Positions 5,837-28,046 of a DNA stretch of 64,000 bases are shown in pieces. Under the pieces are notes generated by a model that did not search any database, was not told the DNA's origin, and saw only the letters and a list, made by a program, of their open reading frames with translations. This DNA comes from Actinocatenispora thailandica (GTDB lineage: Bacteria; Actinomycetota; Actinomycetes; Mycobacteriales; Micromonosporaceae): contig NZ_AP023355.1 of assembly GCF_016865425.1 (NCBI RefSeq), positions 6,074,198 to 6,138,197 on the forward strand, read 5' to 3'. Each line of letters opens with the position of its first letter. Position 1 is the stretch's first letter. The translations under genes and the position numbers were made by a program.

Positions 5837-5938
5837 GTGCCCAGCTCACCACACTCGCCACGGCCGGCGGGTGCGGGTCGGCCGCCCGGCGTGCCGGCCC
5901 CGCCCGGTCCGGACCCGTCGAGCGACCCGCCCCGGGCC

Positions 5939-7433: not shown

Positions 7434-7585
7434 GGCTTCTCCAACCGGTACAGAGTGGACAGGCCGTGAGATTAACAGTAAAGATTCTTAATTGTCATTG
7501 GCTGGCGGCAACCCGCCAGGTTCGCATCCCACGGCACTGCCGCCGGCCCCACCCATCGGGACCGGCGGCACTGCGGCGCCGGCGC

Positions 7586-7651
7586 GCCGCGGTCGGCCGC
7601 GTCGGTCAGGCCGCGGTCGGCCGCGTCGGTCAGGCCGCGTCGGCCGCGTTG
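7586..7651. repeat. Tandem 24-bp repeats across the protease stop codon
   Basis: Two identical 24-bp units (7586-7609 and 7610-7633), GCCGCGGTCGGCCGC plus GTCGGTCAG on the plus strand, and a partial third unit inside the gene. The stop codon of the leftward protease gene (7630-7632) is part of the second unit. The unit is rich in GCGGCC/GGCCGC and can form hairpins. Confidence 0.85.
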
Positions 7652-8703: not shown

Positions 8704-8726
8704 GTCGATCACCCTTCGAGGCTTGT

Positions 8727-8744
8727 GGTGACAACGGTGTCACC
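8727..8744. promoter_or_regulatory. Inverted repeat in divergent promoter region
   Basis: GGTGACA and TGTCACC, 7-bp perfect arms with a 4-base spacer, lie in the 95-bp gap between the protease and methyltransferase starts. This is a plausible operator; no regulator gene is adjacent. Confidence 0.45.
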
Positions 8745-8798
8745 CAGTAAGACGCATCGGACAAAACATGTCAATCCCCGGTTTCCGTCGGAAAGCGG

Positions 8799-9569
8799 TT
8801 GCCGAATCCGGACCGGCGGCCGACACTGCACCGCGTGTACTCCGACGCGGCCGCCGCCGCCCTCTACGACGTGCTGAACCCCTGGAACCCCGAGACCTAC
8901 CCCAGCGACGCGTTCCACCACCGGCTAGTGCTGGCGGCCGGCTCGGTACTCGACGTCGGCTGCGGCACCGGCACGATGCTCGGCTACGCCCGCGACCACG
9001 GGCACACCGGGCGGCTCGTCGGCATAGACCCCGACCGCGCCGCACTGGACCGGGCCCGCCGCCGTACCGACGTCGAGTGGTTCGAGGCCACCGCCGCCGA
9101 GGCCGACACCCGTACCGGCGGTGGGTTCGAACTCGCCGTGATGACCGGACACGCCTTCCAGGTGCTGGTCACCGACGAGGAGCTGCGTCGCTCGCTGGCC
9201 GCGATCCACGCGTCGCTCGCACCGGGCGGCCGGTTCGCCTTCGAGACCCGGCATCCGCAGGCGCGGGCCTGGCTCGACTGGATCCCGGCGAACGCCGCGG
9301 ACGTGGTCGACCCGACCGGCCGGACGCTGCGGACCTGGCACGACGTCGAGTCGGTCGACGCCGACGTGGTCACGTTCACCGGGACGACCGCCGACCCGGA
9401 CGGCACCGTGCTGCGGGTCGACCGGTCCCGGCTCCGGTTCCTCGACGTACCGGCGCTCAACGGATTCCTGGTCACCGCCGGTTTCACCATCGAGGCACAG
9501 TACGGCGACTGGGAGCACGGCCGGGTCACCCCGAGCAGCCGCGAGATCGTCACCATCGCCCGCCGCTGA
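8799..9569 (+). CDS. Class I SAM-dependent methyltransferase
   Basis: A 256-residue methyltransferase. Motif I is VLDVGCGTGTMLG near residues 50-62, followed by an acidic LVGIDPD strand end that binds the SAM ribose, and a later LAPGGRFAFETRHP segment typical of small-molecule class I enzymes. The TTG at 8799 is chosen because GGAAAG lies about 5 bases upstream. A GTG at 8835 is an alternative start that would still keep the whole fold. No substrate clue is seen in the neighbourhood; the gene diverges from the protease and is followed by an unrelated transcription unit. Confidence 0.82.
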   Translation: MPNPDRRPTLHRVYSDAAAAALYDVLNPWNPETYPSDAFHHRLVLAAGSVLDVGCGTGTMLGYARDHGHTGRLVGIDPDRAALDRARRRTDVEWFEATAAEADTRTGGGFELAVMTGHAFQVLVTDEELRRSLAAIHASLAPGGRFAFETRHPQARAWLDWIPANAADVVDPTGRTLRTWHDVESVDADVVTFTGTTADPDGTVLRVDRSRLRFLDVPALNGFLVTAGFTIEAQYGDWEHGRVTPSSREIVTIARR

Positions 9570-9616
9570 CGCGCCCCGGCCAACCGCGCCGATCGCGGTG
9601 ACCCGGCGACGACTCT

Positions 9617-9650
9617 GTCCACAGTGCACTGTTCGAAACACACCGTGGAC
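9617..9650. promoter_or_regulatory. Inverted repeat upstream of hypothetical/M16 operon
   Basis: GTCCACAGTG (9617-9626) and CACCGTGGAC (9641-9650) pair at 9 of 10 positions around a 14-base centre. The repeat lies in the 234-bp gap before the gene at 9804. It could be an operator or a leader hairpin. Nothing else recognisable is in this gap. Confidence 0.35.
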
Positions 9651-9803
9651 GCATGCCGGCCGTGGCAGGCCCGCTCGTACGGGGCACCGCGCTCAGCCTG
9701 GGATTCCGGGACGGCCGCCACATCGCAACAAGCCGGACGGATCCCTCGCTATCGCACGGGCTCACCGCCGCCCGTGGTTTCAACTTCGCATCGAGGCACA
9801 TCC

Positions 9804-10769
9804 ATGTCCCCGAGTGCCGCTACGCTCCCGCCCGTGCCTGATCCCCTCCCTTCGACCGACGCCGCCGTCGCCTATCCGAAACTCCGTACGCTGCGGCGAG
9901 CCATCGCCGACAGCAACGGCGGTGCCGCGATCGCCTTCATCGACGCGGAACCCGACCCGACCGGCCGAACCTTCGTGCTGCGGTACGCGGCCGGGCTCGA
10001 CGGAGCGCTCCCCGTCGCCGCGGAACAGCACGCGCGACGGCCGGACGATCCGACCGCTGCGGCGCTCTACGCCGCGACACTGATCGAGGCCGGCTGGCAG
10101 ATCCGCTCCGGCCGACGCGCGCGCGAGGTGTCCACCGAGCAGTTCCACGGACTCCACGACCACCTGCGCCGCGCCGAGCAGATCCTCATCGACCGCACCG
10201 CTGCCGATCCCGACGACGCCACTGCCTGGGTACTGCGCCTGATCACCGCCCGAGGCCTGGAACTCGGTGCGAACGAGTGCCGCCGTCGCTACGATCGGTC
10301 GGTCGCCGCGCAGCCGCACAACCTGCCGGCGCAGCAGCAGTTCCTGCAACAGCTGTGTCCCAAGTGGACGGGTACCTTCGACGAGGTGCACGAGTTCGCC
10401 CGGCAGTGCTGGCTCGCCTCGCCGCCGGGCAGCCCCAACGGCTTCCTCGTCGCCATCGGCCATCTGGAACGGTGGCTGGAACTCGGTGACGCGGGCGGCG
10501 CACACCTCCGGCAGCAGTCGGTGCACGACGAGGTCGTCCAGGCGGCGGAACACTCGGTCTGGTATCGGGGCGCGGACACCGGCTTCTATGGGTTGACCGC
10601 GCACAGCACGTTCGCGATGTACTTCAGCCTCGTCGACGACCGGGCGGCCGCCGCGCGGCACTTCGCCGCCTGCGGCGGCGCCATCAGCGAACTGCCCTGG
10701 GCATACCTGGGCGATGCCGCACGGCAGGCGGCCCGACACCGCGCGCGCGTGACGGGAGCGGGCCAGTGA
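9804..10769 (+). CDS. Hypothetical helical-repeat protein
   Basis: A 321-residue protein that I do not recognise by name. It is mainly alpha-helical, rich in Ala/Arg/Glu, with helix pairs such as AATLIEAGWQIRSGRRAREV, AEQILIDRTAADPDDATAWVL and FLVAIGHLERWLELGDAGGAH that resemble tetratricopeptide-type repeats. No signal peptide or membrane segment is visible. The ATG at 9804 is preferred because GAGG lies 8 bases upstream; the frame is open 60 codons further, but that part is composition-poor. Its stop overlaps the next start by four bases (GTGA), so it is translated together with the M16-like peptidase and probably works with it. Confidence 0.6.
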   Translation: MSPSAATLPPVPDPLPSTDAAVAYPKLRTLRRAIADSNGGAAIAFIDAEPDPTGRTFVLRYAAGLDGALPVAAEQHARRPDDPTAAALYAATLIEAGWQIRSGRRAREVSTEQFHGLHDHLRRAEQILIDRTAADPDDATAWVLRLITARGLELGANECRRRYDRSVAAQPHNLPAQQQFLQQLCPKWTGTFDEVHEFARQCWLASPPGSPNGFLVAIGHLERWLELGDAGGAHLRQQSVHDEVVQAAEHSVWYRGADTGFYGLTAHSTFAMYFSLVDDRAAAARHFAACGGAISELPWAYLGDAARQAARHRARVTGAGQ

Positions 10770-12436
10770 CACGCGACGACACCGAGGTCGAGATCGACGG
10801 CGTACCCGTACTGCGGGCTCCCGCACCGGACGGGGTCTGCCGGGCCGGGCTGATGTTCCGAGTCGGTTACGCCGACGAGACCCTGACGCAAAGCGGCATC
10901 ACCCATCTGGTCGAGCATCTCGCGCTGCACGGGACAGACCTCGCCGATCGCCGCTCCAACGGGTTCACCTCCATGCTCGACACCCAGTTCGCGGTCACCG
11001 GCAGCGAGGACGAGGTGGTCACGTTCTTCGACACCCTCTGCGGCACGCTGTCCGACCTGCCGGTGGACCGGCTGGACACCGAGCGGCAGTTGTTGCGGGC
11101 GGAGCGACGCAGCCGGGGCGGCCTCACCGTGGGGCCGATGCTGCGCGAACGGTACGGCGCGCAGCGCCACGGACTCCCCGCGTACCAGGAACTCGGGCTG
11201 CACACCGTCGACGCCGACGCGCTGCGGGAGTGGGCGGCCCAGTGGTTCACCAGGCAGAACGCGGTGCTCTGGCTGATGGGTGACGCGGTACCGGACAAGC
11301 TGCGGCTCGCCCTGCCGGACGGGCGTCGGATGCCGGCACCGCCCGCCGTCGACCTGCTCGTCGAGACGCCGGCGTACTTCCACGAGGACCACGATCGCAT
11401 CCTGTGCACCGCGGTCGTGCCCCGGAGCCCCGCGGTGCCGGTCTTTCGCCGGGCACTGGAGCGATTGCTGTACCGGGAACTGCGCGAGAACGGCGGTTAC
11501 TCGTATGCGGTGGAAGTCGCCGCCGAGCCGCGCGGCGACGGGTACAGCACCGTGACGGTGGCCGCGGACACGGTGCCGGACCGACAGGACGCCGCGGTCG
11601 GCCAGTTCCTCGACGTCATGGCCGCGCTGCGGCGCGGTCGCGTTCCGGCCGGCGACGTCACCGCGGCGTTGGACGACGCACGGCGGCAGGTGTCGCACCC
11701 GAACTGGGCCGCCGAGTCGTTGCCCGCCCGGGCTCTCGACCTGCTGCTCGGACAGACCTCCGGCACGGCCGAGGGGGTGCTGGGCACCACGATCGAGGAT
11801 CTCGCCGGGGTCGCCCGCGAATTCGCCGGCTCGGCGCTGCTGTCCCTGCCGGTGCGCCGGCAGGCGGACTGGGCCGGCTTCGCACCGGTGCCCAGCGGGT
11901 CGACGCACTGCGTCGTCGGTACCCGGTACGCCAGCCGTTCCGGCACCGGTACCGAACTCGTGGTCGGGCCCACCGGAGTCACGGCGTGCGGCGCATCCGG
12001 CCGCGCCCGTACGGTCGAGTACGCGTCCTGCGCCGCGGTCGTGGTGTGGCCGGACGGCGGCCGGGTCCTGGTCGGCGACGACGGATTCGAGATCGCCGTC
12101 GAACCGACCCTGTTCGATCTCGACGCCGCGGCACTCGACTCGCTCGCCGCCGTACCCGCGCAACTGCTGGTGCCGCTGCCGGCCCGCGACCCGCGGGAGA
12201 TCCCACAACCAGCCGAGCCGGCGGCACCAGCCCCCGACCAGGAACCCGATCGGCGCGGACAGCTTCGACCGCTGGTGTTGCTGCTGGTACTGGCGCTTGC
12301 CTTCGCCGCGCTGTTCGGGTTCGCCGCCGTGGCCGACCAGTGGGGTGGCGGAGCGCTCGGCGCCGCCGGCAGCGCGGCCGGTTCGGGAGTGCTGATCGGT
12401 TTGATCGCCCGGCTCAAGCGTCGTGATCGGAAGTAA
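10766..12436 (+). CDS. M16-family zinc peptidase-like protein with C-terminal membrane anchor
   Basis: A 556-residue protein. The inverted zinc motif HxxEH is intact as HLVEH at residues 47-51, in the usual context ([14 protein letters not shown]), and E113 in LLRAERRS is a candidate third zinc ligand. The second half (from about 190) looks like the paired M16 domain, including [13 protein letters not shown]. Near the C-terminus (about residues 500-550) there are two hydrophobic segments and a basic RLKRRDRK end, so it is probably anchored in the membrane. M16 peptidases degrade or process short peptides, often peptide-natural-product or pilin-like substrates. Unlike most bacterial M16 genes it is not paired with a second M16 gene. 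It starts with a GTGA overlap. Confidence 0.72.
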
Positions 12437-12561
12437 CGGAGGTCGGACCGGGGCCACCCGTACCGTGGTCGGCCGCACGGACCATGGCGGCCTGGGGCGC
12501 GGGCGGCCGTCCGGGTCCCGAGCGCCGGGCGGTGAGCCGGCTGACCGCGTCTGTCCGTTCG

Positions 12562-12590
12562 TTGACACGGATGGGTGGTTCGGCTAGAAA
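12562..12590 (+). promoter_or_regulatory. Housekeeping-type promoter of the orphan paaA-like gene
   Basis: TTGACA at 12562-12567, a 17-base spacer and TAGAAA at 12585-12590 form a near-consensus sigma70-type promoter. Transcription should start near 12597, giving a leader of about 43 bases. Confidence 0.7.
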
Positions 12591-12639
12591 CATCACGTCG
12601 ACCACGTTGTTCCCGCATTGCCGCCCGGGGAGAGATGTC

Positions 12640-13638
12640 ATGCGACACGGACGCCAGGAGGCGGGCGGTGAACAGCTTCGGCTGATCGACGACCCCGGCC
12701 CCGACGAGGCCGCGCTGCAGCGGTACTTCGAGGACATGGTCGCGGCCGATGCGAAGATCGAGCCGCGGGACTGGATGCCCGAGGCGTACCGGTCGATGAT
12801 GGTCCGCCAGATCGGCCAGCACGCGCACTCCGAGCTGATGGGCATGCAACCGGAGTCGAACTGGCTGTCCCGGGCGCCGAGCCTGCGGCGCAAGACGGCG
12901 CTGCTGGCCAAGGTGCAGGACGAGGCCGGCCACGCGATGTACCTGTACGCGGCGGCCGAGACGCTCGGCGTCACCCGCGACGAGCTGCTCGACCAGTTGC
13001 ACGACGGCCGGCAGCACTACAGCGTCGTGTTCAACTTCCCGGCCGCCAGCTGGGCGGACATCGGCGCGATCGGCTGGCTGCTGGACGGCGCGGCGATCGC
13101 CAACCAGGTGCCGCTGTGCCGCTGCTCGTACGGGCCGTACGCGCGGGCGATGGTCCGGATCTGCAAGGAGGAGTCGTTCCACCAGCGGCAGGGCTACTCG
13201 ATCCTGCACACGCTGGCCGGCGGCACCCCGGCGCAGCACCGGATGGCGCAGCAGGCCGTCGATCGCTGGTGGTACCGGGCGCTCGCGCTGTTCGGCCTGC
13301 CGGACCGGGCGTCCCGCAACACGTCGCGCTCGATGGCGTGGAAGATCAAGCGGCTGACCAACGACGAGGTGCGGCAGAAGTTCGTCGACACGATCGCCGA
13401 GCAGGTCGGTTCGCTCGGCCTGACGCTCCCGGACCAGGCGCTGCGCTGGAACGACGAGCGCGGCCACTGGGACTTCACGCTGCCCGACTTCGACGAGTTG
13501 AGCACCGTGCTCAAGGGGTACGGCCCGTGCAACCGGCAACGGATGGAGCGCCGCCGCCGCACCCACGACGAGGGCGCCTGGGTTCGGGAGTCCGCGCTCG
13601 CCTACGCCGAGAAGCGACGGCGACGCCGCGCCGGCTGA
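12640..13638 (+). CDS. PaaA-like di-iron epoxidase subunit, orphan paralogue
   Basis: A 332-residue homologue of PaaA, the catalytic subunit of phenylacetyl-CoA epoxidase. It keeps two ExxH di-iron motifs, DEAGH in [20 protein letters not shown] and EESFH in [13 protein letters not shown]. It is visibly close to the PaaA encoded at 26864-27955 (shared [38 protein letters not shown]). It lacks the N-terminal extension of that copy and has no paaB, C, D or E beside it. It could use the subunits of the full operon, or act on a different CoA thioester in this locus. The ATG at 12640 has GGGGAG about 7 bases upstream and a strong promoter further up. The next gene is convergent. Confidence 0.85.
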
Positions 13639-13654
13639 CCGGCGCGGCGCGGCG

Positions 13655-14824
13655 TCACGGCGGTCGCATCCGGTCCTGGAACGGGTGGCCGCACAGCGAC
13701 CGGAAGAACCCGCCGGCCCGGACCGGATCCTCGGACACGGCTCGCAGCGACGCCAGCCGGCGCGGCGGCAGCTCCAACCGGGCGAGCGTCAGGGTGTGCT
13801 GGTACTCGTCGCGCAGCAGCTCGTCGCGCCGGTCCGCGAAGCGCCGCAGCGCCGGCCGGAGCCGGTCCGGGCTGCCCAGGTCCAGGCCGGTGCCGATGCT
13901 GTCGGCGAGCAGCCGGGCCTGGTGGAACGCGTCGGTGATGCCGCGTGCGGTCAGCGAATCCTTGTGGTGGCCGGCATCGCCGACCAGGGCCCAACCGGCA
14001 CCCACCGGCTGCCGGAAGAAGTTGAGCTGGGCGCCGGTGCCGTAGAGCCGTTCGGCGCGCTGCACCGCCATCATCCGGGCCTGCACGTCCGGTGCCGTGT
14101 CGCGAACCGCGGCCAGGTAGGCGGCGCCCGCGTCGCGCCGCACGCCTGGGTACTCGGACTGCGGGAAGTAAGCCGCGACGAGGGTCAGGCCGTCGTTGGT
14201 CGGCACCACACCGATCCACCGGCCGGGTGCCTCGTGGATCTCGAACCGGTCCGAGACACCGGGCCAGTAGCTGTAGTAGACGCAGGTACGCGGCGGGTCG
14301 GTGACCCGGACGGCGGCACCGGCCCGGGCCGCCACCACCGACCGCATCCCGTCGGCGCCCACCACCAGCGGCGCGCGGAGCCGCTCCGGCGCCCCGGTGC
14401 CGGCCCGCAGCAGTACCCCCGCGACCCGGTCGTCCTCGACGATCAGGTCGGTGACTCGCCGGCCGGGGCGGAAGTCCACCCCGGCGGCCACCGCGGCCTC
14501 CACCAGCAGCTGATCGAGCAGGTACCGGCGGGGCCCGAGCGCGTATCCGATGCCGTCGAACGTCCACAACGGACCGTCGATGGAGACGCCGCCCGCGCGG
14601 TACCGCAGGCGCGCGATGTGCGGGCATCCGGTGCCGTGCACGGCATCCAGCAGTCCCCAGTCGCGCAGCAGCGCGACCGCCGGCTGCTGGAGGTAGTGCG
14701 TGGAGAGCGTGTCGCGCGGGAACCGGGCCCGGTCGACCAGCGTGACCCGGTACCCGGCGCGCGCCAGCAGCATCGCCGTCGGCGCACCGGCGCAGCCGGC
14801 GCCGACCACGACCACGTCAGGCAC
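13655..14824 (-). CDS. FAD-dependent oxidoreductase, group A monooxygenase-like
   Basis: A 389-residue flavoprotein. The dinucleotide-binding motif GAGCAG is at residues 8-13, a second FAD motif (VVGADGMRS) lies near the middle, and the GD motif is in WALVGDAGHHKDSLTARG at about residues 275-290. This is the layout of PHBH-type monooxygenases and geranylgeranyl-reductase-like enzymes. The halogenase signature WxWxIP is absent (GRWIGVVPTNDG instead), so halogenation is not predicted. Its GTG start overlaps the stop of the PrnB-like gene by eight bases, so the two are translated together. It is the last gene of the operon, and it probably oxidises the product or the substrate of the PrnB-like enzyme. 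Convergent with the orphan paaA-like gene. Confidence 0.83.
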   Translation of the reverse strand: MPDVVVVGAGCAGAPTAMLLARAGYRVTLVDRARFPRDTLSTHYLQQPAVALLRDWGLLDAVHGTGCPHIARLRYRAGGVSIDGPLWTFDGIGYALGPRRYLLDQLLVEAAVAAGVDFRPGRRVTDLIVEDDRVAGVLLRAGTGAPERLRAPLVVGADGMRSVVAARAGAAVRVTDPPRTCVYYSYWPGVSDRFEIHEAPGRWIGVVPTNDGLTLVAAYFPQSEYPGVRRDAGAAYLAAVRDTAPDVQARMMAVQRAERLYGTGAQLNFFRQPVGAGWALVGDAGHHKDSLTARGITDAFHQARLLADSIGTGLDLGSPDRLRPALRRFADRRDELLRDEYQHTLTLARLELPPRRLASLRAVSEDPVRAGGFFRSLCGHPFQDRMRPP

Positions 14825-15944
14825 GAGACAACGGCTCCGGCTCGGCGTTCGCGGTGGGCGCCGCCGGCCGCGGCCGGATCAACCGCGCGTTGTCCCGGGT
14901 GAGCCGGACGATGCTGGACAGCAGTTCGACGCTGCCGCCGCTGCTGCCCACCGGGAACAGCCGGACATCCTCCTGGTAGGACTTGCGCGCGACGCCGAGA
15001 TGCTTGGCGCGAAACGACAGCAGGGCGCGCAGCGACTGCTCCACCGCGGTCGCGGCGGCCCGCAGCCGCTCGTCCAGCGGGCCGTCGCCCGCCTCGTCCA
15101 GCGCGGCGGTGACCCGCGCGACGAGCGACGGCACCCCGGCCAGTTCGGCGTAGCGGCGCCGCCACTCCGGCAGGGCGTACGGGACCCCCTCGGCCCAGAA
15201 CTCGGCGTAGTCGACGGAGTCCTGATCGGTCTGGTCGTGGTCGGCGGCCCACAGCATCAGGTCGAGCAGCGGTACCGGCAGCCCGGCGCCGGCCCCGCCG
15301 CGCCACAACCGGCCGTCGACGAGCACCTCGTCGAAGTACGGCCGCAGCTCGTTGGCGAAGAACGCCGGGTTCACCCGGCCGATCACCAGCTCGATCGCCT
15401 CGTCCAGGGAGGCCAGCAGGGCGCGGAAGCTGCCCATCGCGGTCAGGAACTCCGGGTCGGTCAGCGCGGCCCCGGTCAGCGGGCCGGCCAGCTCGACCGC
15501 CTGGGACAACCGCGGCAGGCTGAGCCGGACCGAGTCGATGAGCGCGGCCTCCTGCGACGATCCGGTGTAGCTTCGTTGCCGCTCGCCGTACGGGTTCCAG
15601 ACGCTGTAGTGGTGCACGGTGTCCCGGGGCACCACGTCGCCGCGCGCGGCCAGCCGCAGCAGCACCGGCTCGACCTCCGGTACCGCCGTCACCGGCTCGA
15701 CGCCGTGCCGCTTGACCGACCCGAGCAGCAGGCCGAGATCCCGCATGGCCGCGCGACACTCGTACGGGGTGCCGTCGGGCACCGCCGCCGCGTTGCCGGC
15801 CAGCCGGCGCAACGCGACGACCAGCGCGTCGAGGTCCGCGGCGGCGTTCATCTCGGGCAGCCTGCGGTACGTCTCGTCGGCGTCGAGCGGATCGAGCGCG
15901 CGGACCAGCCTGCTGTCGCGATGGTTGCCCGGCCCGGACGTCAC
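14817..15944 (-). CDS. PrnB-like haem enzyme (monodechloroaminopyrrolnitrin synthase family)
   Basis: A 375-residue protein that resembles PrnB, the pyrrolnitrin enzyme that rearranges 7-chlorotryptophan and belongs to the indoleamine/tryptophan dioxygenase superfamily (DUF1864). Shared blocks, compared from memory, include CRAAMRDLGLLLGSVKRHG, VEPVLLRLA, SVWNPYGERQRSYTG, FFANELRPYFD and FRAKHLGVA. H315 in that last block is in the place of the PrnB haem-ligand histidine. No halogenase is nearby, so the product is not pyrrolnitrin. The GTG at 15944 has GGGGAG 8 bases upstream, inside the end of the preceding gene. The gene sits between a binding lipoprotein and an FAD oxidoreductase in one operon. 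Confidence 0.82.
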   Translation of the reverse strand: MTSGPGNHRDSRLVRALDPLDADETYRRLPEMNAAADLDALVVALRRLAGNAAAVPDGTPYECRAAMRDLGLLLGSVKRHGVEPVTAVPEVEPVLLRLAARGDVVPRDTVHHYSVWNPYGERQRSYTGSSQEAALIDSVRLSLPRLSQAVELAGPLTGAALTDPEFLTAMGSFRALLASLDEAIELVIGRVNPAFFANELRPYFDEVLVDGRLWRGGAGAGLPVPLLDLMLWAADHDQTDQDSVDYAEFWAEGVPYALPEWRRRYAELAGVPSLVARVTAALDEAGDGPLDERLRAAATAVEQSLRALLSFRAKHLGVARKSYQEDVRLFPVGSSGGSVELLSSIVRLTRDNARLIRPRPAAPTANAEPEPLSRA

Positions 15945-15948
15945 GACG

Positions 15949-17154
15949 TCACTCCCCGATCGTGGGTAGCTCGTTGACGAGAACGTTGGACAGTACGGAG
16001 CCGTCCATCCGCACCTGACGCAGGTAGAACTTCTGTACCGGGGCGTGTTTCTTGCTGAACTGCCAGCTGCCCCGGGGGTCGTTCTGGATGCCGAGGTTGG
16101 CGATGGCGGTGTTCACCGCCTGCCCGGTCAGCTTCCGGCCGTCCGCGGTCAGCGACGAGATCGCCTGGTCGAGGATGGACGCCGCGCTGTAGCCGTACGC
16201 CGCGGGCTCGTTCGGCGCGGTGCCGTACGCGTGCTGGTAGGCGACGACGAACTCCCGGTTCGCGTCGTTGTCCAGGGTCGGCGTGTAGTCCAGCGAGCTG
16301 TAGATTCCCAGCGCCGCCGGGCCTTCGACCTGGAGCAGGTCGCAGCAGGTCAGCGGCCCCGAGGCGTACACCCGGATGCCCTGTGACTTCAGCCCGAGCT
16401 GCTGGTAGTCCTTGACGAACTGGACCGCCTGCAGCCCGGTCGCCCAGACGTAGATGGCCTTGGCGCCGTTCTGCTGCGCCTCGGTCAGGTACGACCGGTA
16501 GCTGGTCTTGTTGCTGTACGGCGCGTAGGTGGGCTGCCCGTTGGGGTTGGCCAGCTTCCCGCCGGCCGCCTTGAAGGTGCGGACGAAGGTCTGGGTGGTG
16601 TCTCCCTTGGCGGGCCCGAGATCGGTGCCCAGCACGTAGACCTTGCCGCCGGCGTTCTTGGCGACGTAGGCGCCGAGCGCCTCCGGCGGATCGGAGGTGA
16701 GGTTCGAGGCACACCAGAGGTAGGTCAGGTCGGGCACCTGGTCGGTGCAGGCCAGCGTGCTGACCAGCGGGAGCTTCCGCTTGGTGACCGGCGCCTGCAT
16801 CGCGAGGACGGTACGCACGTCGCTGATTCCGGTGATGGCGAGCAGATCCCGCTGGTCCAGCAGGCTCTTCTCCGCCTTCGTCGCCTTCGTACTGGTCGGG
16901 TCGTCGCCGGCGTCGCGCTGCACGACCCGGACCCGCCGCCCACCGAGCCGGCCGTTGTGCAGCTTGAGATAGAGGTCGAGCCCGTCCCGCATGGACCGGC
17001 CGATGCCCTTCTGGATCCCGGACATGTCCGCGATGAAGCCGATCTTGATCGGGGCGGACGACACGCCCTTGCCGCCGTCGCTGGTACACCCGGCCGCCAG
17101 GAGCAGCAGCACACCTGGTGCCGCGAGCCCGGCCAGCACTCTCCTGACGCCCAA
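15949..17154 (-). CDS. ABC-type solute-binding lipoprotein, LivJ-like
   Basis: A 401-residue periplasmic-binding-protein type 1 protein (Peripla_BP_6), the family that binds branched-chain amino acids, amides and aromatic compounds. A lipoprotein signal ends in LLLAAGC, with the lipidated cysteine at residue 23. The mature part starts with IKIGFIADMSGIQKGIG and contains VYVLGTDLGPAKGDTTQTFV and AAYGYSAASILDQAI, typical of the fold. No permease or ATPase gene is adjacent, so it either borrows a transporter or works as a sensor. The TTG start is supported by GGAAGGA about 7 bases upstream. Its stop is four bases from the PrnB-like start, so the two are tightly co-expressed, which suggests it binds the PrnB-like enzyme's substrate or product. 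Confidence 0.85.
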   Translation of the reverse strand: MGVRRVLAGLAAPGVLLLLAAGCTSDGGKGVSSAPIKIGFIADMSGIQKGIGRSMRDGLDLYLKLHNGRLGGRRVRVVQRDAGDDPTSTKATKAEKSLLDQRDLLAITGISDVRTVLAMQAPVTKRKLPLVSTLACTDQVPDLTYLWCASNLTSDPPEALGAYVAKNAGGKVYVLGTDLGPAKGDTTQTFVRTFKAAGGKLANPNGQPTYAPYSNKTSYRSYLTEAQQNGAKAIYVWATGLQAVQFVKDYQQLGLKSQGIRVYASGPLTCCDLLQVEGPAALGIYSSLDYTPTLDNDANREFVVAYQHAYGTAPNEPAAYGYSAASILDQAISSLTADGRKLTGQAVNTAIANLGIQNDPRGSWQFSKKHAPVQKFYLRQVRMDGSVLSNVLVNELPTIGE

Positions 17155-17231
17155 GACGATTCCTTCCGACAGGCACGACGTTGCCCGGGGCCGGCCCGTC
17201 CCGGCCGACCCCGTCTATCCACTGTGGATCG

Positions 17232-17960
17232 TCAGCGGCCGGCGACGACCGAGCCGATGATGTCGGCGACCCGCTTCGGTGCGGCGAGCATCGGGGAGTG
17301 GCAGGAGTCGGCCAGCTCGACCACCGAACCCGCCCGCTTGCACAGCTCCCGCTGCACCACGGTCGGCGTCGCGTTGTCCTGACCGGTCAACACGTAGGTC
17401 GACGGGATGTCGCGCCAGGCGATCGCGGTCGGCGACTGCTCCAGCACGGCGGCGGACATCGGCCGCAGCTGCGCCACCGCCGCCTCGGCGGCCTCCGGCG
17501 GCATGCCGTTGTAGAACAGCGTCGCCGCCCGCTCGGTCTTGACGCCCATCATCCCGTTCTCGCCCATCGTCAGGTCGAGCGGCGGGTTGAGCACGTCCGG
17601 ACCCGGGTTCGGCACGGCGTAGCCGCCCAGCGCCTCGCCCTCGTCGGCGTTGTAGGCGGCGACGTAGACCAGGTGCCGCACGGCCGGATGGCCGGCCGCT
17701 CCCTCGGTCGCCGGAATTCCCCCGTACGAGTGGGCCACCAGCACCACGTCCTGGTACCGGTCCAGGGTGCGCCGGATCTCGGCGGCGTCGGCGTGCATGT
17801 CACCGGCCGGCGCACCGTCGACGGTGCGGCAGCTCGGCAGGTCGACCGTGACGCTGTGGATGCCGTACTGGTCGAGTTCGGCGATCACCGGGGTCCAGCA
17901 CCATGGGCTGTGCCAGGCGCCGTGCACCAGGACCACCGTCGGGTTGTCGTTTGTTGTCAT
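17232..17960 (-). CDS. Alpha/beta hydrolase, small esterase type
   Basis: A 242-residue alpha/beta hydrolase. The oxyanion region VLVHGAWHSPWCW, the nucleophile elbow AHSYGG and a late histidine in ADSCHSPML are all present. This pattern resembles plant and bacterial small-molecule esterases of the salicylate/methyl-ester type, but the substrate is unknown. No signal peptide is seen. It is the first gene of the leftward operon; the solute-binding lipoprotein gene follows 77 bases downstream. It diverges from a PaaI-like thioesterase, so both units share the 199-bp region 17961-18159, in which I see no clear operator. Confidence 0.82.
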   Translation of the reverse strand: MTTNDNPTVVLVHGAWHSPWCWTPVIAELDQYGIHSVTVDLPSCRTVDGAPAGDMHADAAEIRRTLDRYQDVVLVAHSYGGIPATEGAAGHPAVRHLVYVAAYNADEGEALGGYAVPNPGPDVLNPPLDLTMGENGMMGVKTERAATLFYNGMPPEAAEAAVAQLRPMSAAVLEQSPTAIAWRDIPSTYVLTGQDNATPTVVQRELCKRAGSVVELADSCHSPMLAAPKRVADIIGSVVAGR

Positions 17961-18159
17961 GCTGTTCGCCTTCCGTACGTCCTCGTGCCGGTTGCGAAAT
18001 ACGAACCGCTGTCACGTCAGGGATCCCAGACGATGCTTTTGCACGGTTCCTGGCGAGCGCCTATTTTGCCTACGCCGGGTCGTCACCGAAAGACCCCCAG
18101 CGAAACTACGTCACGCATCCGCGCGATCACGGTCGGACAGTTTCGGAGGAGAGCAGCCC

Positions 18160-18612
18160 GTGGAACCGTTCGATCAGAACGCCATCGCCGGAGTCGGCCC
18201 GCTCGGTCCGGCGGTCGATCGGACCGGGGTCGAGATCCGGCAGGCCAGCGCCGACCGGGTGGTCGGCACGATGCCCGTCGCCGGCAACACCCAGTCGTAC
18301 GGGATGCTGCACGGCGGCGTGTCCTGCGTGCTGGCCGAGACGCTCGGCACCATGGCCGCGGCGCTGCATGCCGGGCCGCGACGGCGCGCCGTCGGCGTCG
18401 AGATCAACGCCACCCACCACCGGCCCGCCGTGGCCGGCACCATCACCGGGACCGCCACCCCGCTGCATCGCGGCGACACCCTTGCCACGTACCGGATCGT
18501 GCTCACCGACGACGCCGGCCGGACGGTCTGCACCGCCCGGCTGACCTGCCTGATCCGGGACCTGGACAGCGCGGCCGGCGGCCCCGGAGGCGGCGAGATC
18601 TCGGCGCGGTAA
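18160..18612 (+). CDS. PaaI-like hotdog thioesterase
   Basis: A 150-residue hotdog-fold thioesterase. The signature QSYGMLHGGVSCVLAET, with the HGG turn, is that of the PaaI/YdiI group, which hydrolyse aromatic acyl-CoA thioesters in the cytoplasm. GVEINATHHRP and a final strand ending in TARLTCLIRDL fit the fold. The GTG at 18160 has a strong GGAGGA 9 bases upstream. In this context it may release CoA from intermediates of the paa pathway (operon 6 kb away) or of the nearby acyl-CoA synthetase. It is the first of three rightward genes, with a gap of 144 bases to the next. Confidence 0.82.
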   Translation: MEPFDQNAIAGVGPLGPAVDRTGVEIRQASADRVVGTMPVAGNTQSYGMLHGGVSCVLAETLGTMAAALHAGPRRRAVGVEINATHHRPAVAGTITGTATPLHRGDTLATYRIVLTDDAGRTVCTARLTCLIRDLDSAAGGPGGGEISAR

Positions 18613-18756
18613 CGGCCGCCGGCGAGGGTTGCGGACCGGGTACCGCTGGTCAAACATTGCAAATCACGGCCCCGAGCGCATCGATCGCATAGCGCGCTAG
18701 GTGGCATGCAAGCGTATCCACTTCCCGAAGGGAACGTTCGGACTGGAGCCGCCCAG

Positions 18757-19581
18757 ATGCCCACCGGATACAGCTTCGACAACGCCGGCGCGGCCGGCGC
18801 GAGACAGCTCGATCAGCTCAGCGAGGCGTTCGACGGGCACACCACGTCCGTCCTCACCGAGTACGGGGTGGGCCGCGGCTGGCGGTGCCTGGACATCGGG
18901 GCCGGGGCCGGCTCCATCGCCGGCTGGCTCGCCGACCGGGTCGGGCCGCAGGGGCACGTCACCGCCACCGACGTGAAGCCGCAGTACCTCACCGAGCGGG
19001 ACAACCTGACGGTGCTCACCCACGACATCGGCAGCGATCCGGTACCGGCCGGCGAGTACGACCTGATCCACGCCCGGATGGTGTTCGTCCACCTGCCGAA
19101 CCGGCAGGAGGTACTCGCCCGGCTGGTCTCCGCGCTGCGCCCGGGTGGCCTGATCGTCGTGTCGGACTGCGACTGCCGGGAACGCGACCCCATCCTGGCC
19201 GCTCCCGACCCCGCGGCGGCGAAGACGTTCGAGCTGTTCAACGACCTCATCCGGGACCTCGGCTGGCGCAACGGCGCGGACCTCGGCTGGACCAGGTACA
19301 CCTACTCCGCGATGCGCGCCGCCGGGCTGCTGCCGGACCGGACCGTGGTGTTCGGCCGGTCCTGGGCCGGCGGCAGCGCCGGATGCGGCCTGTACCAGGC
19401 GTTGGCGTACCAGATCGAGCCGGTGCTGCGCGCCGGCGGGATGACCGACGAGCAGATCGCGGAGCTGCACCGGCTGCTCGACGATCCCGGGTTCGTACTC
19501 TCCGCCTGGCTGATGCACACCACGGTGGGGCGGCGTCCCGGGCCGGTGGTACCGGCCGGGCGGCGGCAGGGCGGGTCCTGA
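18757..19581 (+). CDS. Class I SAM-dependent methyltransferase
   Basis: A 274-residue methyltransferase. Motif I is CLDIGAGAGSIAGWLADRVG, the acidic ribose-binding residue is in VTATDVKP, and ALRPGGLIVVSDCDCRERDP is the usual post-motif strand. It resembles the many small-molecule methyltransferases of actinomycete natural-product loci. The ATG at 18757 has GGAG 8 bases upstream and gives the natural MPTGYSFDNAG start; an ATG at 18706 would add 17 residues. Its stop codon overlaps the start of the acyl-CoA synthetase by one base (TGATG), so the two are translationally coupled and probably act in one pathway. Confidence 0.83.
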   Translation: MPTGYSFDNAGAAGARQLDQLSEAFDGHTTSVLTEYGVGRGWRCLDIGAGAGSIAGWLADRVGPQGHVTATDVKPQYLTERDNLTVLTHDIGSDPVPAGEYDLIHARMVFVHLPNRQEVLARLVSALRPGGLIVVSDCDCRERDPILAAPDPAAAKTFELFNDLIRDLGWRNGADLGWTRYTYSAMRAAGLLPDRTVVFGRSWAGGSAGCGLYQALAYQIEPVLRAGGMTDEQIAELHRLLDDPGFVLSAWLMHTTVGRRPGPVVPAGRRQGGS

Positions 19582-21212
19582 TGCGCGACGGGTACCGCAG
19601 CCCACCGGTGCCGACCGCGAGCGGGCTGTCCAGCATGGCCGACCCGGTGTTCCGGAACGCCGCGGAGCATCCCGACGCGGTCGCCTTCGTCCCGTCGGTG
19701 GGCGCCGCCCCGATCCGCGCGGCCGAGTTCGCCGCGCTGGTGACCGCCGTGGCCAAGGGCCTGATCGCGGTGGGAGTCCGCACCGGCGACCGGGTCGCCC
19801 TGCTGTCCGCGACCTGCTACGAGTGGACCGTCTGCGACTACGCGCTCTGGTCGATCGGCGCCGTCAGCGTGCCGATGTACGACACCGCGAGCGTCGAGCA
19901 GGTCGGCTGGATCCTGCGGGACTCCGGCGCCGGTTGGTGCCTCGTCGGCGGAGCCGCCGAGGCCGGCGTCGTCGAGACGGCGGCCGGCACGATCGACGGC
20001 CCCCCGCCGCAGCTGCTGCGGCTGGACGACGGTGCACTGGCGGCGCTCGCCGCGCGGGCCCCGGAGGTCGACGACGAGGTGTTCGGGCAGCGCCGGAAGG
20101 TGCCACCGGAGTCGGTCGCGACCATCATCTACACCAGCGGGACGACCGGGCCGGCCAAGGGCGTGACGATCAGCCACGACAACTTCCTGTCGAACCTGGA
20201 CGGGTTCCTGCACCGGCTCGACCCGGTGTTCGCGCCGGGCGGTGCGATCGTGCTGTTCCTGCCGCTCGCGCACATCTTCACCCGGACGATGCAGTGCGCT
20301 TCGGTGCTGCGCCGGGTCCGCATCACCCACCTCTCCCGTACCGCGGAGCTGGCGGCCGGCCTGGCCGCGGCCCGGCCGACGGTGCTGCCGCTGGTCCCCC
20401 GGTTCATGGAGAAGCTGCGGGACGCGGCGCCGAACGGCGATGCCCGGGCGGTACTCGGCGGCCGGTGCGGCGCGATCGTGGTCGGCGGCGCCCCGCACGA
20501 CGAGCGGATCGGCCAGTTCTACCGGTCCGCCGGGATCGCCGTCTACGAGGGGTACGGGTTGACCGAGGTGGCCGGCCCGGCCACCATCAACGGACCGGAC
20601 GCGACCCGGCTGGGTACGGTGGGCCAGCCGCTGCCCGCAGTTTCGGTACGCATCGCCGCCGACGGTGAGGTCCTGGTGCGCGGCGACTGCGTGTTCGGCG
20701 GCTACCACCGCAATCCGGCGGCGACCGCCGGCGCGCTGGTGGACGGCTGGTTGCACACCGGTGACATCGGGGCGCTGGACGACGACGGCTTCCTGTCGAT
20801 CACCGGGCGCAAGAAGGACCTGGTCATCACCGCCGGCGGCAAGAACGTCGACGTGACGACGCTGGAGAGCCGGCTGCGGGCGCACCCGCTGATCAGCCAG
20901 GCGGTGGTGGTCGGCGACCGCCGGCCGTTCGTGTCCTGCCTGGTCACGCTGGACCGGGTGGCGCTGCGCGAGCGCGGTCACCCCGGTGGGCCGCTCGATC
21001 GGGATCCGCTGCTGCGGGCCGAGATCCAGGCGGCGGTGACGGCAGCCAACCAGGCGGTGTCGCGCGCCGAGTCGATCCGCGCGTTCCGCATCCTGGACGG
21101 CGAGCTGACCGTCGCCGGCGGCGAGCTCACCGCCTCGCTGAAGATCCGCCGCGAGACGGTCGCCTCCCGCTACCGGGCCGAGATCGACGCGATGTACCTG
21201 CCGGATTCGTAA
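19581..21212 (+). CDS. AMP-dependent acyl-CoA synthetase, FadD15-like
   Basis: A 543-residue adenylate-forming ligase. The ATP-binding loop IIYTSGTTGPAKGV is at about residues 183-196, the A5-type motif is YEGYGLTEVAGP, A7 is GWLHTGDIG and A8 is SITGRKKDLVITAGGKNVDV. These are features of long-chain or aromatic acyl-CoA ligases of the FadD15/AMP-forming group; it is somewhat shorter than FadD15 (about 600). It activates a carboxylic acid to its CoA thioester. Coupled to the methyltransferase and next to a thioesterase, it may load the substrate of this locus. The A10-like lysine is probably the one in TASLKIRRE near the C-terminus. Confidence 0.87.
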   Translation: MRDGYRSPPVPTASGLSSMADPVFRNAAEHPDAVAFVPSVGAAPIRAAEFAALVTAVAKGLIAVGVRTGDRVALLSATCYEWTVCDYALWSIGAVSVPMYDTASVEQVGWILRDSGAGWCLVGGAAEAGVVETAAGTIDGPPPQLLRLDDGALAALAARAPEVDDEVFGQRRKVPPESVATIIYTSGTTGPAKGVTISHDNFLSNLDGFLHRLDPVFAPGGAIVLFLPLAHIFTRTMQCASVLRRVRITHLSRTAELAAGLAAARPTVLPLVPRFMEKLRDAAPNGDARAVLGGRCGAIVVGGAPHDERIGQFYRSAGIAVYEGYGLTEVAGPATINGPDATRLGTVGQPLPAVSVRIAADGEVLVRGDCVFGGYHRNPAATAGALVDGWLHTGDIGALDDDGFLSITGRKKDLVITAGGKNVDVTTLESRLRAHPLISQAVVVGDRRPFVSCLVTLDRVALRERGHPGGPLDRDPLLRAEIQAAVTAANQAVSRAESIRAFRILDGELTVAGGELTASLKIRRETVASRYRAEIDAMYLPDS

Positions 21213-21370
21213 CGATGCACCGGACAACACCTGAAGACATCGACAACGGTCTTTCCTCCGGCGGACATTCATGATGCAATCCAGCGGTTCATAACTCCTT
21301 GCGCTGTTGGTAATGCATAACCGTATTCATCGATGACTGCGTTGTATGCCCGTCTCGGAGGGGTGGCCGG

Positions 21371-24112
21371 TTGAGCGAGCGGCAGAGCACCACGGAACGG
21401 TCCGGCACCCCGGAGCGACCCGGCACCCCGGAACGACCCGGCACCGCAGAGCGATCAGGCACCGCAGAGCGGCCGACCACCTCGGGGCGACGGCGGGGCC
21501 CGGTGGCCCGGCTGCGTGACGCCCGGATCCGTACCAAGCTCGGGCTGATCCTGATCGTGCCGATCACCGCGCTGATCGGGGTCGCCGCCGTCCAGCTGGT
21601 CGGCACCGGCCAGGACGTGCTGCAGGCCCGGCAGGCGATCCAGCACGCCCGGCTCGCCGACCGCGCCAGCGCGCTGACGACCGACCTGCAGACCGAACGA
21701 ACGCTCGCCGCGACCCTGCTCACGACGCCGAAGCAGAAGCAGGGCCCCGCCGCCCGGGCGTACCGGGCGCAGATCGCCCGGGCCGACAAGCAGGTCCGGG
21801 CGTACCGGGCGGCGCGCGCCGACCTGGACAGCTCGGAGAGCAGCCTGACGGACCTGCTGGGGCGCATCGACACCCAGCTCGACGAGCTCGACCCGCTGCG
21901 CCGGTCGATCGAGAAGCGCGACATCATCCCGCTGTCCACCGCGGTGTTCAGCTACCGCAGCCTGATCGCGGACCTGCTCGCCTACCGGCAGACGCTGGCC
22001 AACGTCGCCGGGTCCGACGAGGCGGCCAACCTGGCCCGCGGCGCGAGCGCGATGGCCTCGCACACCGAGATGACCTCGCAGGAGCAGGAGGTCGGCATCG
22101 TCATGCTGGCCGGCGGCGCCGACGTGACCTCCGCCCAGCACGAGTCGTTCCAGGCCAACCTGGAAGGCCAGGCCGAGGCGCTGCGCGCGTTCCGGGACGC
22201 CGTCGACGCCGACCACGTCACCGCCATGGAACGGACGATCGCCGGCCGGGGTGTCGGAGCGAACGCCGGTACCCCGCTGCCGGGCGACCGGCGCACGATG
22301 ACCAACGCCCAGGCCCAGAGCGACATCATCGCCGCCCAGCGGTACGAGGGTGATCTGAGCCGGGCCAGCGCCGGCGACGCCGTCACGTTCCCGGACAAGG
22401 CCGGTGCCGCGCAGTGGACGGAGACGATGGGCACCCGGGTCGCGCTCAGTGGCCTGGTGGACAGCCGGCTCCGGGCGCAGTTCCGCGCCCTCGTCCAGCG
22501 ACAGGAGAACGATCTGCTCCGCCAGCTCATCGCCGAGTCCGCGGCGGTGTCGCTGATGGTGCTGGTGGCGATCGCGATCGCGCTGCTGACCGCCCGCTCC
22601 ATGGCCCGGTCGCTGCACCGGCTGCGGGCCGGTGCGCTGTCCGTGGCGTACCAGGAGCTGCCGGCCACCGTGAGCCGGCTCCGGGACCCGGGCACCCTCG
22701 GCGCGCTCACCGCGGACGACATCGCCGCCGGCGTGGAGGACGCGGTGGCGCGGCCCAGCCAGGACGAGATCGGCCAGGTGTCCGAGGCGTTCAACGTGGT
22801 GCACCGGGAGACGGTCCGGATCGCCGCCGAGCAGGCCACGCTCCGCAACAGCGTGTCGACGATGTTCGTCAACCTGGCGCGCCGGTCCCAGCTGATGGTC
22901 GACCGGCTGATCCGGCGCATCGACCAGATGGAACAGGGCGAGCAGAACCCGGACCGGCTCGGCCAGCTGTTCCATCTCGACCACCTGGCCACCCAGATGC
23001 GCCGCAACGACGAGAACCTGCTGGTACTGGTCGGGGTGGACGTGAGCCGGGCGCGCCGGGAGCCGGCGGCGCTGGGTGACGTGCTGCGCGCCGCGCAGTC
23101 CCAGGTGGAGCAGTACACCCGGGTCGAGCTGGGCGTCGTGGACATGGGTGTGGACGTCGTCGGCAGCGCGGTGAACGACCTGGTCCATCTGATCGCGGAG
23201 CTGCTGGACAACGCGACGTCGTTCTCGCCGCCGGACACCGTCGTGACGGCGGAGGCGTGTTGGATCGGCAACCGGGCCTACGTCACGATCACCGACTACG
23301 GCACCGGCATCCGCGCCGACCGGCTGCGCGAGCTCAACCGGCGGCTGGCCGACCCGCCGTCCGTGGACGCGTCGCTGTCCCGGAACATGGGCCTCGCCGT
23401 GGTGGGCCGGCTGGCCAAGCACATCGGTGCCACCGTCGAGCTGCGCTCCCCGGCGCAACGCGGCACGCTGGCCGAGGTGGTCATCCCGCAGGAGATCCTG
23501 GAGTCGCCGGGGCACCGGACGTTCACGGACCCGGCGGCGGCACGCCAACCGGTCGAGCCGCCGCGGGCCGCGCGGGCGGCGCAGCCGGTGCCGGCGCGGC
23601 CGTCCATCGGGCTGCCACCGCGCGCCGCGGTCGCCGAGGCACCGGTGCGGGAGCCGGCGCCGGTGGGTGCCGACCGCTGGGCGGGCACCGCCGAGGCGGT
23701 CGACCAGACCTCGGAGCTGCCGCAGTTGCGGCCGGCCGAGTCGGCATGGTTCCAGACCGCGTCGCCGGCGCCCAGGCACGAGCAGGCCCCCGAGGTACCC
23801 GAAATGCCGCGTGGCGGGCCCGAGCGGCAGCCACGGGCGGCGGCGACCGGGCGCTGGCAGTCGCCCGCCGACGACGGGTGGCGGCTGGCCGCGACGGCCC
23901 CGCAGCTCGGCGACCGGCGCACGTCCGGCGGCCTACCGCGGCGCGACCCGCAGGCGCAGCTGGTGCCCGGCAGCGTGACCGGGCGACCGGCACCGGCCAG
24001 CCGGCAGCGGTCGGCCGAGGCGGTTCGCGGCACGTTGTCGTCCTATCACCGGGGCCTGCAACGGGCTCGGGTCGGCGACCGGTACCAGTCGGACGAGTCG
24101 GAGCCGCGCTGA
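21371..24112 (+). CDS. Nitrate/nitrite-sensor-like histidine kinase, CvnA type, orphan
   Basis: A 913-residue membrane sensor. Residues 9-38 are six-residue repeats (ERxGTx). One transmembrane helix is at about 58-77, an extracytoplasmic NIT-like helical domain runs to about 385, a second helix is at about 386-410, and a HAMP-like linker follows. A kinase core has LFHLDHLATQMRRNDENLLVL (candidate H-box near 533), the N-box AELLDNATSFSPP near 606-620 and G1 DYGTGI near 641. About 200 low-complexity Pro/Ala/Arg residues end the protein. This is the architecture of CvnA kinases of actinobacterial conservons, whose partners are a roadblock protein, a DUF742 protein and a small GTPase. None of these follows here. 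The TTG start has GGAGGGG upstream. Confidence 0.82.
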   Translation: MSERQSTTERSGTPERPGTPERPGTAERSGTAERPTTSGRRRGPVARLRDARIRTKLGLILIVPITALIGVAAVQLVGTGQDVLQARQAIQHARLADRASALTTDLQTERTLAATLLTTPKQKQGPAARAYRAQIARADKQVRAYRAARADLDSSESSLTDLLGRIDTQLDELDPLRRSIEKRDIIPLSTAVFSYRSLIADLLAYRQTLANVAGSDEAANLARGASAMASHTEMTSQEQEVGIVMLAGGADVTSAQHESFQANLEGQAEALRAFRDAVDADHVTAMERTIAGRGVGANAGTPLPGDRRTMTNAQAQSDIIAAQRYEGDLSRASAGDAVTFPDKAGAAQWTETMGTRVALSGLVDSRLRAQFRALVQRQENDLLRQLIAESAAVSLMVLVAIAIALLTARSMARSLHRLRAGALSVAYQELPATVSRLRDPGTLGALTADDIAAGVEDAVARPSQDEIGQVSEAFNVVHRETVRIAAEQATLRNSVSTMFVNLARRSQLMVDRLIRRIDQMEQGEQNPDRLGQLFHLDHLATQMRRNDENLLVLVGVDVSRARREPAALGDVLRAAQSQVEQYTRVELGVVDMGVDVVGSAVNDLVHLIAELLDNATSFSPPDTVVTAEACWIGNRAYVTITDYGTGIRADRLRELNRRLADPPSVDASLSRNMGLAVVGRLAKHIGATVELRSPAQRGTLAEVVIPQEILESPGHRTFTDPAAARQPVEPPRAARAAQPVPARPSIGLPPRAAVAEAPVREPAPVGADRWAGTAEAVDQTSELPQLRPAESAWFQTASPAPRHEQAPEVPEMPRGGPERQPRAAATGRWQSPADDGWRLAATAPQLGDRRTSGGLPRRDPQAQLVPGSVTGRPAPASRQRSAEAVRGTLSSYHRGLQRARVGDRYQSDESEPR
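21395..21484 (+). repeat. In-frame 18-bp tandem repeats in the sensor kinase N-terminus
   Basis: Five consecutive 18-bp units (21395, 21413, 21431, 21449, 21467) encode ERSGTP, ERPGTP, ERPGTA, ERSGTA and ERPTTS. They form a charged, disordered cytoplasmic tail before the first membrane helix, and unit number could vary between strains. Confidence 0.85.
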
Positions 24113-24236
24113 GGGCGAACCGGGCCGCCGGCCGGCGACGTCCGCACCGCTGCCCCGGATCGTGTTCGCGCAGCTCCGGTTTCGCCCGGCGAGGCTGCGC
24201 GGGCACCTGCCGGGCCGCCGTCACGGCCGCGAGCGA

Positions 24237-27955: not shown

Positions 27956-27962
27956 GCCCCCA

Positions 27963-28003: not shown

Positions 28004-28046
28004 GCGATGCCGGACAATCCGGCCGGACACCGGCGCCGGACACGCC

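Follow-up and report, generated by a model that had tools for sequence, protein, structure and literature searches.

What does a relative of PrnB, whose reaction is among the stranger ones in haem chemistry, do in an operon that it shares with a binding lipoprotein, a hydrolase and a flavin adenine dinucleotide (FAD) enzyme? The question is raised by positions 13655-17960 of a 64,000-nucleotide stretch (hereafter the window) of the 7.43-Mb genome of the soil actinobacterium Actinocatenispora thailandica, contig NZ_AP023355.1, positions 6,074,198 to 6,138,197. The PrnB-like protein encoded there is a true member of the PF08933/PrnB family, and a flavoenzyme encoded directly after PrnB is a recurrent arrangement across the loci compared in this study. 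As to the function, chances are about even in our estimate that the operon makes a tryptophan-derived small molecule via a PrnB-type step and then a flavin oxidation.

A PrnB-family haem enzyme in a compact operon

The operon consists of four leftward genes, for an alpha/beta hydrolase, a lipoprotein, the PrnB-like protein and the FAD enzyme in this order (Table 1). The original prediction, made from the sequence of the window, had described these four genes as a compact operon with a 4-base gap between the lipoprotein stop and the PrnB-like GTG start and an 8-base overlap between the PrnB-like and FAD genes, and every part of this description is confirmed on the sequence. Moreover, the overlap has the identical length in both sister species, where the PrnB-like start is an ATG located 7 bases past the lipoprotein stop. 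The hydrolase-lipoprotein junction is looser, since the gap there is 77 bases. The ratio of nonsynonymous to synonymous substitution (dN/dS) is 0.14-0.30 across the four genes, with the hydrolase value taken from a single sister species, since in L027, the other one, this gene aligns as two pieces in different frames.

The PrnB-like protein matches PF08933 with 124.7 bits over residues 64-353, where the Pfam cut-off is 27 bits, and a PDB sequence search up to E 10 returned PfPrnB of Pseudomonas fluorescens (2v7i, E 8.4e-59) and FbPrnB of a Flavobacteriales bacterium (E 1.4e-44) and nothing besides these two. With such E-values in Pfam and PDB and with the conservation in three species, chance is excluded. 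The membership in the PrnB/IDO superfamily that had been predicted is thus borne out, and the profile search proposed along with it as a check gave a strong match to the PrnB family.

The predicted structure (ma42d21ce43ef, AlphaFold, 38 aligned rows) has a local confidence (pLDDT) of 89.5 and a predicted template-modelling score (pTM) of 0.86, and it supersedes an earlier model from 7 rows with pLDDT 69.6. In Foldseek the top 12 matches of the 38-row model are without exception crystal structures of PrnB, some of them with bound tryptophan or 7-chlorotryptophan, at 2.0-2.2 Å and template-modelling (TM) scores of 0.82-0.92 (TMt 0.89-0.92); among the matches listed, proteins of the indoleamine 2,3-dioxygenase (IDO) type rank distantly after PrnB, with TMq 0.59-0.70 and 13-17% identity. 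H315, located in the motif FRAKHLG, aligns with residue 313 of PfPrnB chain 2v7i, which we take to be the haem ligand. H315 and four further residues, R79, H80, P106 and R201, are the same in each of the 38 aligned rows, whose identity goes as low as about 20%; this alignment counts the window protein, its other rows are a chosen part of the 80 loci described below, and L121 was excluded because its reference holds a stop codon. The claim that H315 stands at the haem-ligand position therefore holds, and by its alignment H315 is likely the proximal haem ligand; PrnB itself is described as His-ligated in PMC11791213. The structure model, which had also been proposed as a check, shows a PrnB-like fold with the conserved histidine, and although the model itself holds no haem, its superposition on the PrnB crystals suggests a haem pocket. 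On the substrate side, Y113 aligns with FbPrnB Tyr104 and PfPrnB Val117 (the numbering offset is our own reading of the alignment), and the loop GSSGGS is kept, aligning with the FbPrnB Ser319 loop, which closes on the substrate.

The flavoprotein slot behind PrnB in other loci

PF08933 is present in 24 of 354 genomes of the same bacterial family and in 9 of its 44 genera, our own genome counted, and many actinobacterial relatives occur in other contexts, so that the enzyme is not the isolated one that it had been supposed to be. A 7-row alignment was used to scan one genome of each species; 99 stretches were confirmed and the best 80 of the 99 were kept, one of which is that of A. comari; the other 79 loci were used for the neighbourhood counts. 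These come mostly from Streptomyces, with some from Kitasatospora, Glycomyces, Micromonospora and relatives as well as four from Proteobacteria, and 18 of them are cut by more than 2 kb at contig ends.

A PhzS-like flavin monooxygenase is encoded on the same strand, at most 300 bases past the matched PrnB stretch, in 71 of the 79 loci, and anywhere in the locus in 74; no PhzS-like match is found in the remaining five (L055, L064, L070, L075 and L120). Its subfamily is NCBIfam PRK07538 and its nearest solved structure is 3c96 (E 8.4e-93), presumably PhzS itself. The start of the monooxygenase was estimated in 74 loci, of which 4 gave no start and L109 an impossible value; in 28 of the 69 others the estimate implies an overlap with the PrnB stop. 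Because the loci are related by descent, the Streptomyces ones most of all, the 71 cases do not amount to 71 independent events. The PrnB/PhzS-like pair persists while the other genes of the locus change, these being HpaB (59 loci), an MFS pump (58), an NmrA-like gene (63), a ketosynthase (17) and an oxidase of the berberine-bridge type (7).

A tryptophan halogenase is found in two of the 79 loci, both from Glycomyces, and a third such locus, L029, comes from the family set. In all three (L029, L098 and L115) the Glycomyces-genus PrnB relatives, at 44-49% identity, stand directly behind the halogenase, which argues that such PrnB-like enzymes act on (chloro)tryptophan. On one strand these loci (L029:7649-14406, L098 and L115) carry the tryptophan halogenase, PrnB, the PhzS-like monooxygenase and a ketosynthase-like gene, and they are candidate chlorinated aminophenylpyrrole clusters; alkaloids derived from aminophenylpyrrole are reportedly the subject of a 2019 ACS Chemical Biology paper. 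Other variants were also seen. For example, in L033-L037, L118, L119 and L125 a leucine-carboxyl-methyltransferase-like domain follows the PhzS-like monooxygenase, and in L035 the two form a single open reading frame (ORF). In L055, L064 and L070, which form a PrnB branch lacking a PhzS-like match, PrnB is adjoined by a methyltransferase with 31-35% identity to that of window 18706-19581, and L070 has a P450-like gene in addition.

In a tree of 49 rows the three Actinocatenispora PrnB proteins form one branch (100/100), which groups with Glycomyces, Micromonospora and some other rows under weak support (84/67); within the same unresolved fan PfPrnB and FbPrnB make up a separate branch, and the tree carries a long-branch warning. 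Two further observations concern the family as a whole: the loci L002-L006 hold a divergent PF08933 group, which scores 276-319 bits on the Pfam model, far above the window protein, and is about 20% identical to it, and at L043:9476-11427 a PrnB-like gene is split over two frames, maybe as a broken copy or by a sequencing error.

The FAD enzyme of Actinocatenispora

The motifs GAGCAG at residue 8, VVGADGMRS at 154 and LVGDAGHHKDS at 280 correspond to GxGxxG, DG and GD, which we take as the marks of a class A flavoprotein monooxygenase. With the Streptomyces PhzS-like monooxygenase, the alignment of the FAD enzyme is limited to short fragments, and it was accordingly rejected as an orthologue of that protein. 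Among PDB sequences its best matches are halogenases (3e1t, E 1.9e-15 over residues 3-314; 5bul and 5bva, about 1e-13). Two features mark a halogenase, namely a catalytic lysine and the motif WxWxIP. At the lysine position the enzyme has Ile (all 12 aligned relatives have Ile, Leu or Val there), and in place of the motif it has WIGVVP, where the second Trp is Gly (Gly, Ala or Ser in 12 of 12). A halogenase function was rejected on these grounds, and the statement of the original prediction that the operon has no halogenase stands. The best NCBIfam match, QhpG, reaches 87.5 bits and stays below the cut-off of 240.

Relatives of the enzyme occur in at least 154 of the 354 genomes (1e-20, with at most 5 candidates per genome scored), and no PrnB match was found in any of ten 13-kb neighbourhoods of strong relatives outside the genus; for both reasons such relatives were rejected as markers of PrnB, and the enzyme was probably recruited from a generic family. 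Either the PhzS-like gene may have been replaced in Actinocatenispora, or the flavoprotein may have been paired with PrnB independently.

The lipoprotein and the hydrolase

The lipobox LLAAGC is visible in the translation of the lipoprotein, whose nearest solved structure is 4ey3 (E 3.7e-31) and which is 92-93% identical in two sister species. Some of its closest solved relatives are presumed binders of benzoate-type or other aromatic acids. The original prediction had coupled this receptor to the enzyme as a sensor or importer, a claim that finds no support here in that form: lipoprotein relatives occur in at least 268 of the 354 genomes (E 1e-30), and neither a permease nor an ATPase was found among the operon neighbours scanned, for which reason a transport unit was rejected.

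The hydrolase has weak PDB relatives in an esterase, a pyrethroid hydrolase, hydroxynitrile lyases and salicylic acid-binding protein 2, and in A. comari it is 93% identical with dN/dS 0.19. At L027:7341-8065 its two pieces in different frames reflect a frameshift or an assembly error.

As for the survey of the four-gene order that had been proposed as a check, the order is kept in three of four Actinocatenispora genomes (G000, G003 and G005), flanks included, with the hydrolase frame-broken in G005; L026 and L046 are one locus, in which all four genes are present. Beyond the genus, relatives of the lipoprotein, FAD or hydrolase genes were found in none of the 79 other PrnB loci (1e-12 and 90 bits, including the 18 loci truncated at contig ends), nor were they found near PrnB in the family loci L028-L043.

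A proposed pathway and its alternatives

With family, fold, ligand position, gene coupling, conservation and the recurrent flavoenzyme slot observed as described above, we infer a substrate, a product and an order of steps as follows. The PrnB-like protein, its haem ligated by H315, would bind L-tryptophan or a close indole amino acid with the amino group on the iron, and would yield a 3-(2-aminophenyl)pyrrole-type product by ring rearrangement and decarboxylation, in the manner of PrnB. The FAD enzyme, translated in overlap, would then oxidise the pyrrole product by hydroxylation or dehydrogenation, and so would fill the place of PrnC in prnABCD or of the PhzS-like monooxygenase in other actinobacteria. 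The lipoprotein would, at a guess, bind an aromatic or amino-acid-like ligand extracellularly, and the hydrolase, again at a guess, would trim an ester or amide. Such a biosynthetic reading is favoured because of the halogenase-linked Glycomyces relatives, the PrnB-like fold and the step order prnA-prnB-prnC-prnD, in which the flavoprotein acting after PrnB in pyrrolnitrin synthesis is the halogenase PrnC, as reported in PMC6769897.

Several points weigh against this biosynthetic reading. Among the scanned neighbours no prnA-, prnC- or prnD-like gene stands beside the PrnB-like gene, and neither a full-length halogenase nor a Rieske family is found; moreover, whereas many Streptomyces loci include an exporter or regulator, the operon has neither, and in one sister species (L027, genome G005) the reading frame of the hydrolase is broken. 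The glycine-rich loop at the carboxylate contacts of FbPrnB reads GGAGAG in all three Actinocatenispora proteins versus GPAAA(Q/H) in most rows, with Pro at the second place in 31 of 38 and Gln at the sixth in 23 of 38; since FbPrnB, with GAGGGQ, likewise departs from the common form, this is weak counter-evidence. From the literature, the PrnB homologue PdnC of Paenibacillus is predicted to hydroxylate indole (PMC13036774), and the activity of PrnB has not been rebuilt with the purified enzyme according to PMC11791213, so that the reaction is not readable from sequence.

A catabolic role is rather unlikely in our judgement, though it has the neighbourhood on its side. Here the lipoprotein would import or sense an aromatic acid or indole, and the haem and flavoenzymes would open or oxygenate the ring (as IDO/TDO-like enzyme and hydroxylase), and their products would feed the paa operon, assisted by a second PaaA, a thioesterase and a coenzyme A (CoA) ligase. 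The accessory segment that contains the operon adjoins the paa operon, with an extra PaaA of kept motifs, a PaaI-like thioesterase and an AMP-binding ligase nearby; the closest solved relatives of the lipoprotein include the presumed binders of benzoate-type acids, and no exporter is found among the scanned neighbours. However, the fold resembles PrnB more than IDO, no ATP-binding cassette (ABC) permease was found beside the operon, and many relatives of the enzyme adjoin genes for an efflux pump, HpaB, a ketosynthase or a halogenase, surroundings that look biosynthetic.

It is clearly unlikely, in turn, that the haem enzyme is a plain hydroxylase of tryptophan (or peptide-bound tryptophan) or an oxindole-forming monooxygenase, with no rearrangement. 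His-ligated haem enzymes are described as doing so, namely MarE of the same superfamily and the bacterial tryptophan hydroxylases, which according to PMC12921851 are not counted within that superfamily, and the carboxylate-contact loop differing from most rows would fit as well; nevertheless PrnB is the closest match in structure, and there are halogenase-linked proteins among the nearest relatives.

According to PMC11791213 PrnB shows no activity once purified, and the authors of that paper suspect that some component is missing, with partner proteins as one of the options. The FAD enzyme might then be a dedicated electron or oxidant partner of the PrnB-type haem enzyme instead of a tailoring enzyme, with different flavoproteins used in the slot by different lineages, as would suit the flavoprotein directly downstream in 71 of 79 loci, the estimated overlap in 28 of 69, and an Actinocatenispora flavoprotein that shares only short fragments with the Streptomyces one yet takes the same slot. 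We regard this as very unlikely, considering that PrnC acts after PrnB (PMC6769897) and tailoring thus explains the slot equally, that prnABCD is reported to give pyrrolnitrin in E. coli without such a monooxygenase (PMC11791213), that five of the 79 loci have no PhzS-like match, and that the loci are related by descent. We would give least credence to the wider proposal that PrnB-type enzymes need a flavoprotein partner encoded directly behind them as the component missing in vitro, to which Actinocatenispora would point through its other-subfamily flavoprotein in the same overlapping slot, and that haem enzyme and flavoprotein together produce a new metabolite or signal from tryptophan, which the lipoprotein of the operon would read.

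The biosynthetic reading remains the one that we prefer, and the loci gathered here mark a group of related actinobacterial pathways that start from tryptophan and are apparently uncharacterised. The slot occupied in 71 of 79 loci, along with one genus having a different flavoprotein in it, gives a direct list of candidate partners or tailoring enzymes, and the Actinocatenispora operon may help to trace the partner that PrnB seems to lack after purification. In line with the prediction of an undescribed pathway, no publication on this gene set appears among the literature matches listed; nor do these matches include a paper in which PrnB occurs together with a binding lipoprotein, or one about the actinobacterial PrnB-PhzS-like pair, in a search outside which most subscription journals lay. 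A PrnB homologue in another cluster had already been noticed in PMC13036774.

The accessory segment, neighbouring genes and control sites

The operon lies inside an 18.4-kb segment (window 5837-24236) between an NAD-kinase gene and paaE. In one Actinocatenispora genome, G004, about 2.9 kb stand between paaE and the NAD-kinase gene on one contig, with three called ORFs, one of them a WYL regulator. This genome has no PF08933 match, no match to the FAD gene at 1e-20 (5 of 62 candidates scored) and no match to the flanking protein of 6087-7433. The segment is regarded as accessory because of the short interval and the missing PF08933 match in G004.

Table 1. Features of the operon and its surroundings in window coordinates
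Feature	Position	Strand	Remarks
Alpha/beta hydrolase (Abhydrolase_6)	17232..17960	-	First operon gene; PF12697 5e-30
Lipoprotein, amino-acid/amide-type ABC substrate-binding protein	15949..17154	-	TTG start; PF13458 1.5e-60
PrnB-family haem enzyme	14817..15944	-	GTG start; PF08933 124.7 bits; H315 likely proximal haem ligand
FAD-dependent class A type oxidoreductase	13655..14824	-	GTG start; PF01494 7e-26; halogenase-related by sequence, without halogenase residues
Second PaaA-like gene	12484..13638	+	Convergent with operon; TIGR02156 444.8 bits; KVQDEAGH and EESFH kept
Hotdog (4HBT/PaaI-like) thioesterase	17767..18612	+	TIGR00369 4.6e-26; PF03061
S-adenosylmethionine (SAM) methyltransferase	18706..19581	+	Possible distant associate; 31-35% relatives adjoin PrnB in L055, L064, L070
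51-base block, upstream of hydrolase	18023..18073	-	Identical in three species

The second PaaA-like gene keeps two motifs which we take to be those of the iron ligands. It stands apart from the paa operon, the other PaaA site in the window being 26864-28075 (-), and has 62-69% identity to other PaaA copies across three sister genomes. One PaaA match is found in G004, which has no operon, and two each in G003 and G005. We consider this gene an accessory neighbour, with a putative link to the pathway. For the thioesterase, the listed ORF start overlaps the hydrolase, and the true start is probably downstream of 18120.

Three species share the 51-base block ahead of the hydrolase without a single difference, despite a synonymous divergence of about 0.2-0.37 in the operon, and its first 33 bases occur once in each of the three PrnB-bearing genomes and not in the one genome without the operon (G004). 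Being identical in three species and tracking the operon-bearing genomes, the block is a probable promoter, operator or other control site. Small dyads were noted in it by eye, namely TGCAAAAGCA and GGCGCTCGCC. A scan for promoters of the sigma-70 type found none, and a single terminator-like site is what shuffled sequences give as well. An RNA element at the operon was rejected, as no Rfam match at gathering scores was found in 9000-30000 and the predicted folding of the operon leader is no stronger than that of shuffled sequences (z -0.04).

Comparison with known systems

With PrnB of Pseudomonas fluorescens (2v7i) and of the Flavobacteriales bacterium (9dfg), the window protein shares the Pfam family, the fold, the histidine position and the substrate-closing loop, at 34-35% and 27-28% identity respectively in structural alignment. 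Compared with IDO, a superfamily fold and a His-ligated haem are alike, at the distant scores given above among the matches listed. As for the CndH/Bmp2-type flavin halogenases, which we presume the PDB matches of the FAD gene to be, the likeness is confined to residues 3-314, with Ile in place of the lysine and WIGVVP in place of WxWxIP.

At the level of gene organization, the operon lacks the PrnA, PrnC and PrnD of the pyrrolnitrin operon prnABCD and has a binding lipoprotein and a hydrolase. The actinobacterial loci with PrnB and a PhzS-like monooxygenase, in Streptomyces, Kitasatospora and Plantactinospora, often with HpaB, MFS and NmrA genes and sometimes with a ketosynthase, are alike in having a PrnB relative of 40-49% identity and a flavoprotein directly downstream, whereas the flavoprotein of the window belongs to a different subfamily. 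The Glycomyces-genus loci, weakly supported tree neighbours (84/67) of the Actinocatenispora proteins, differ in their tryptophan halogenase upstream and in their PhzS-like monooxygenase.

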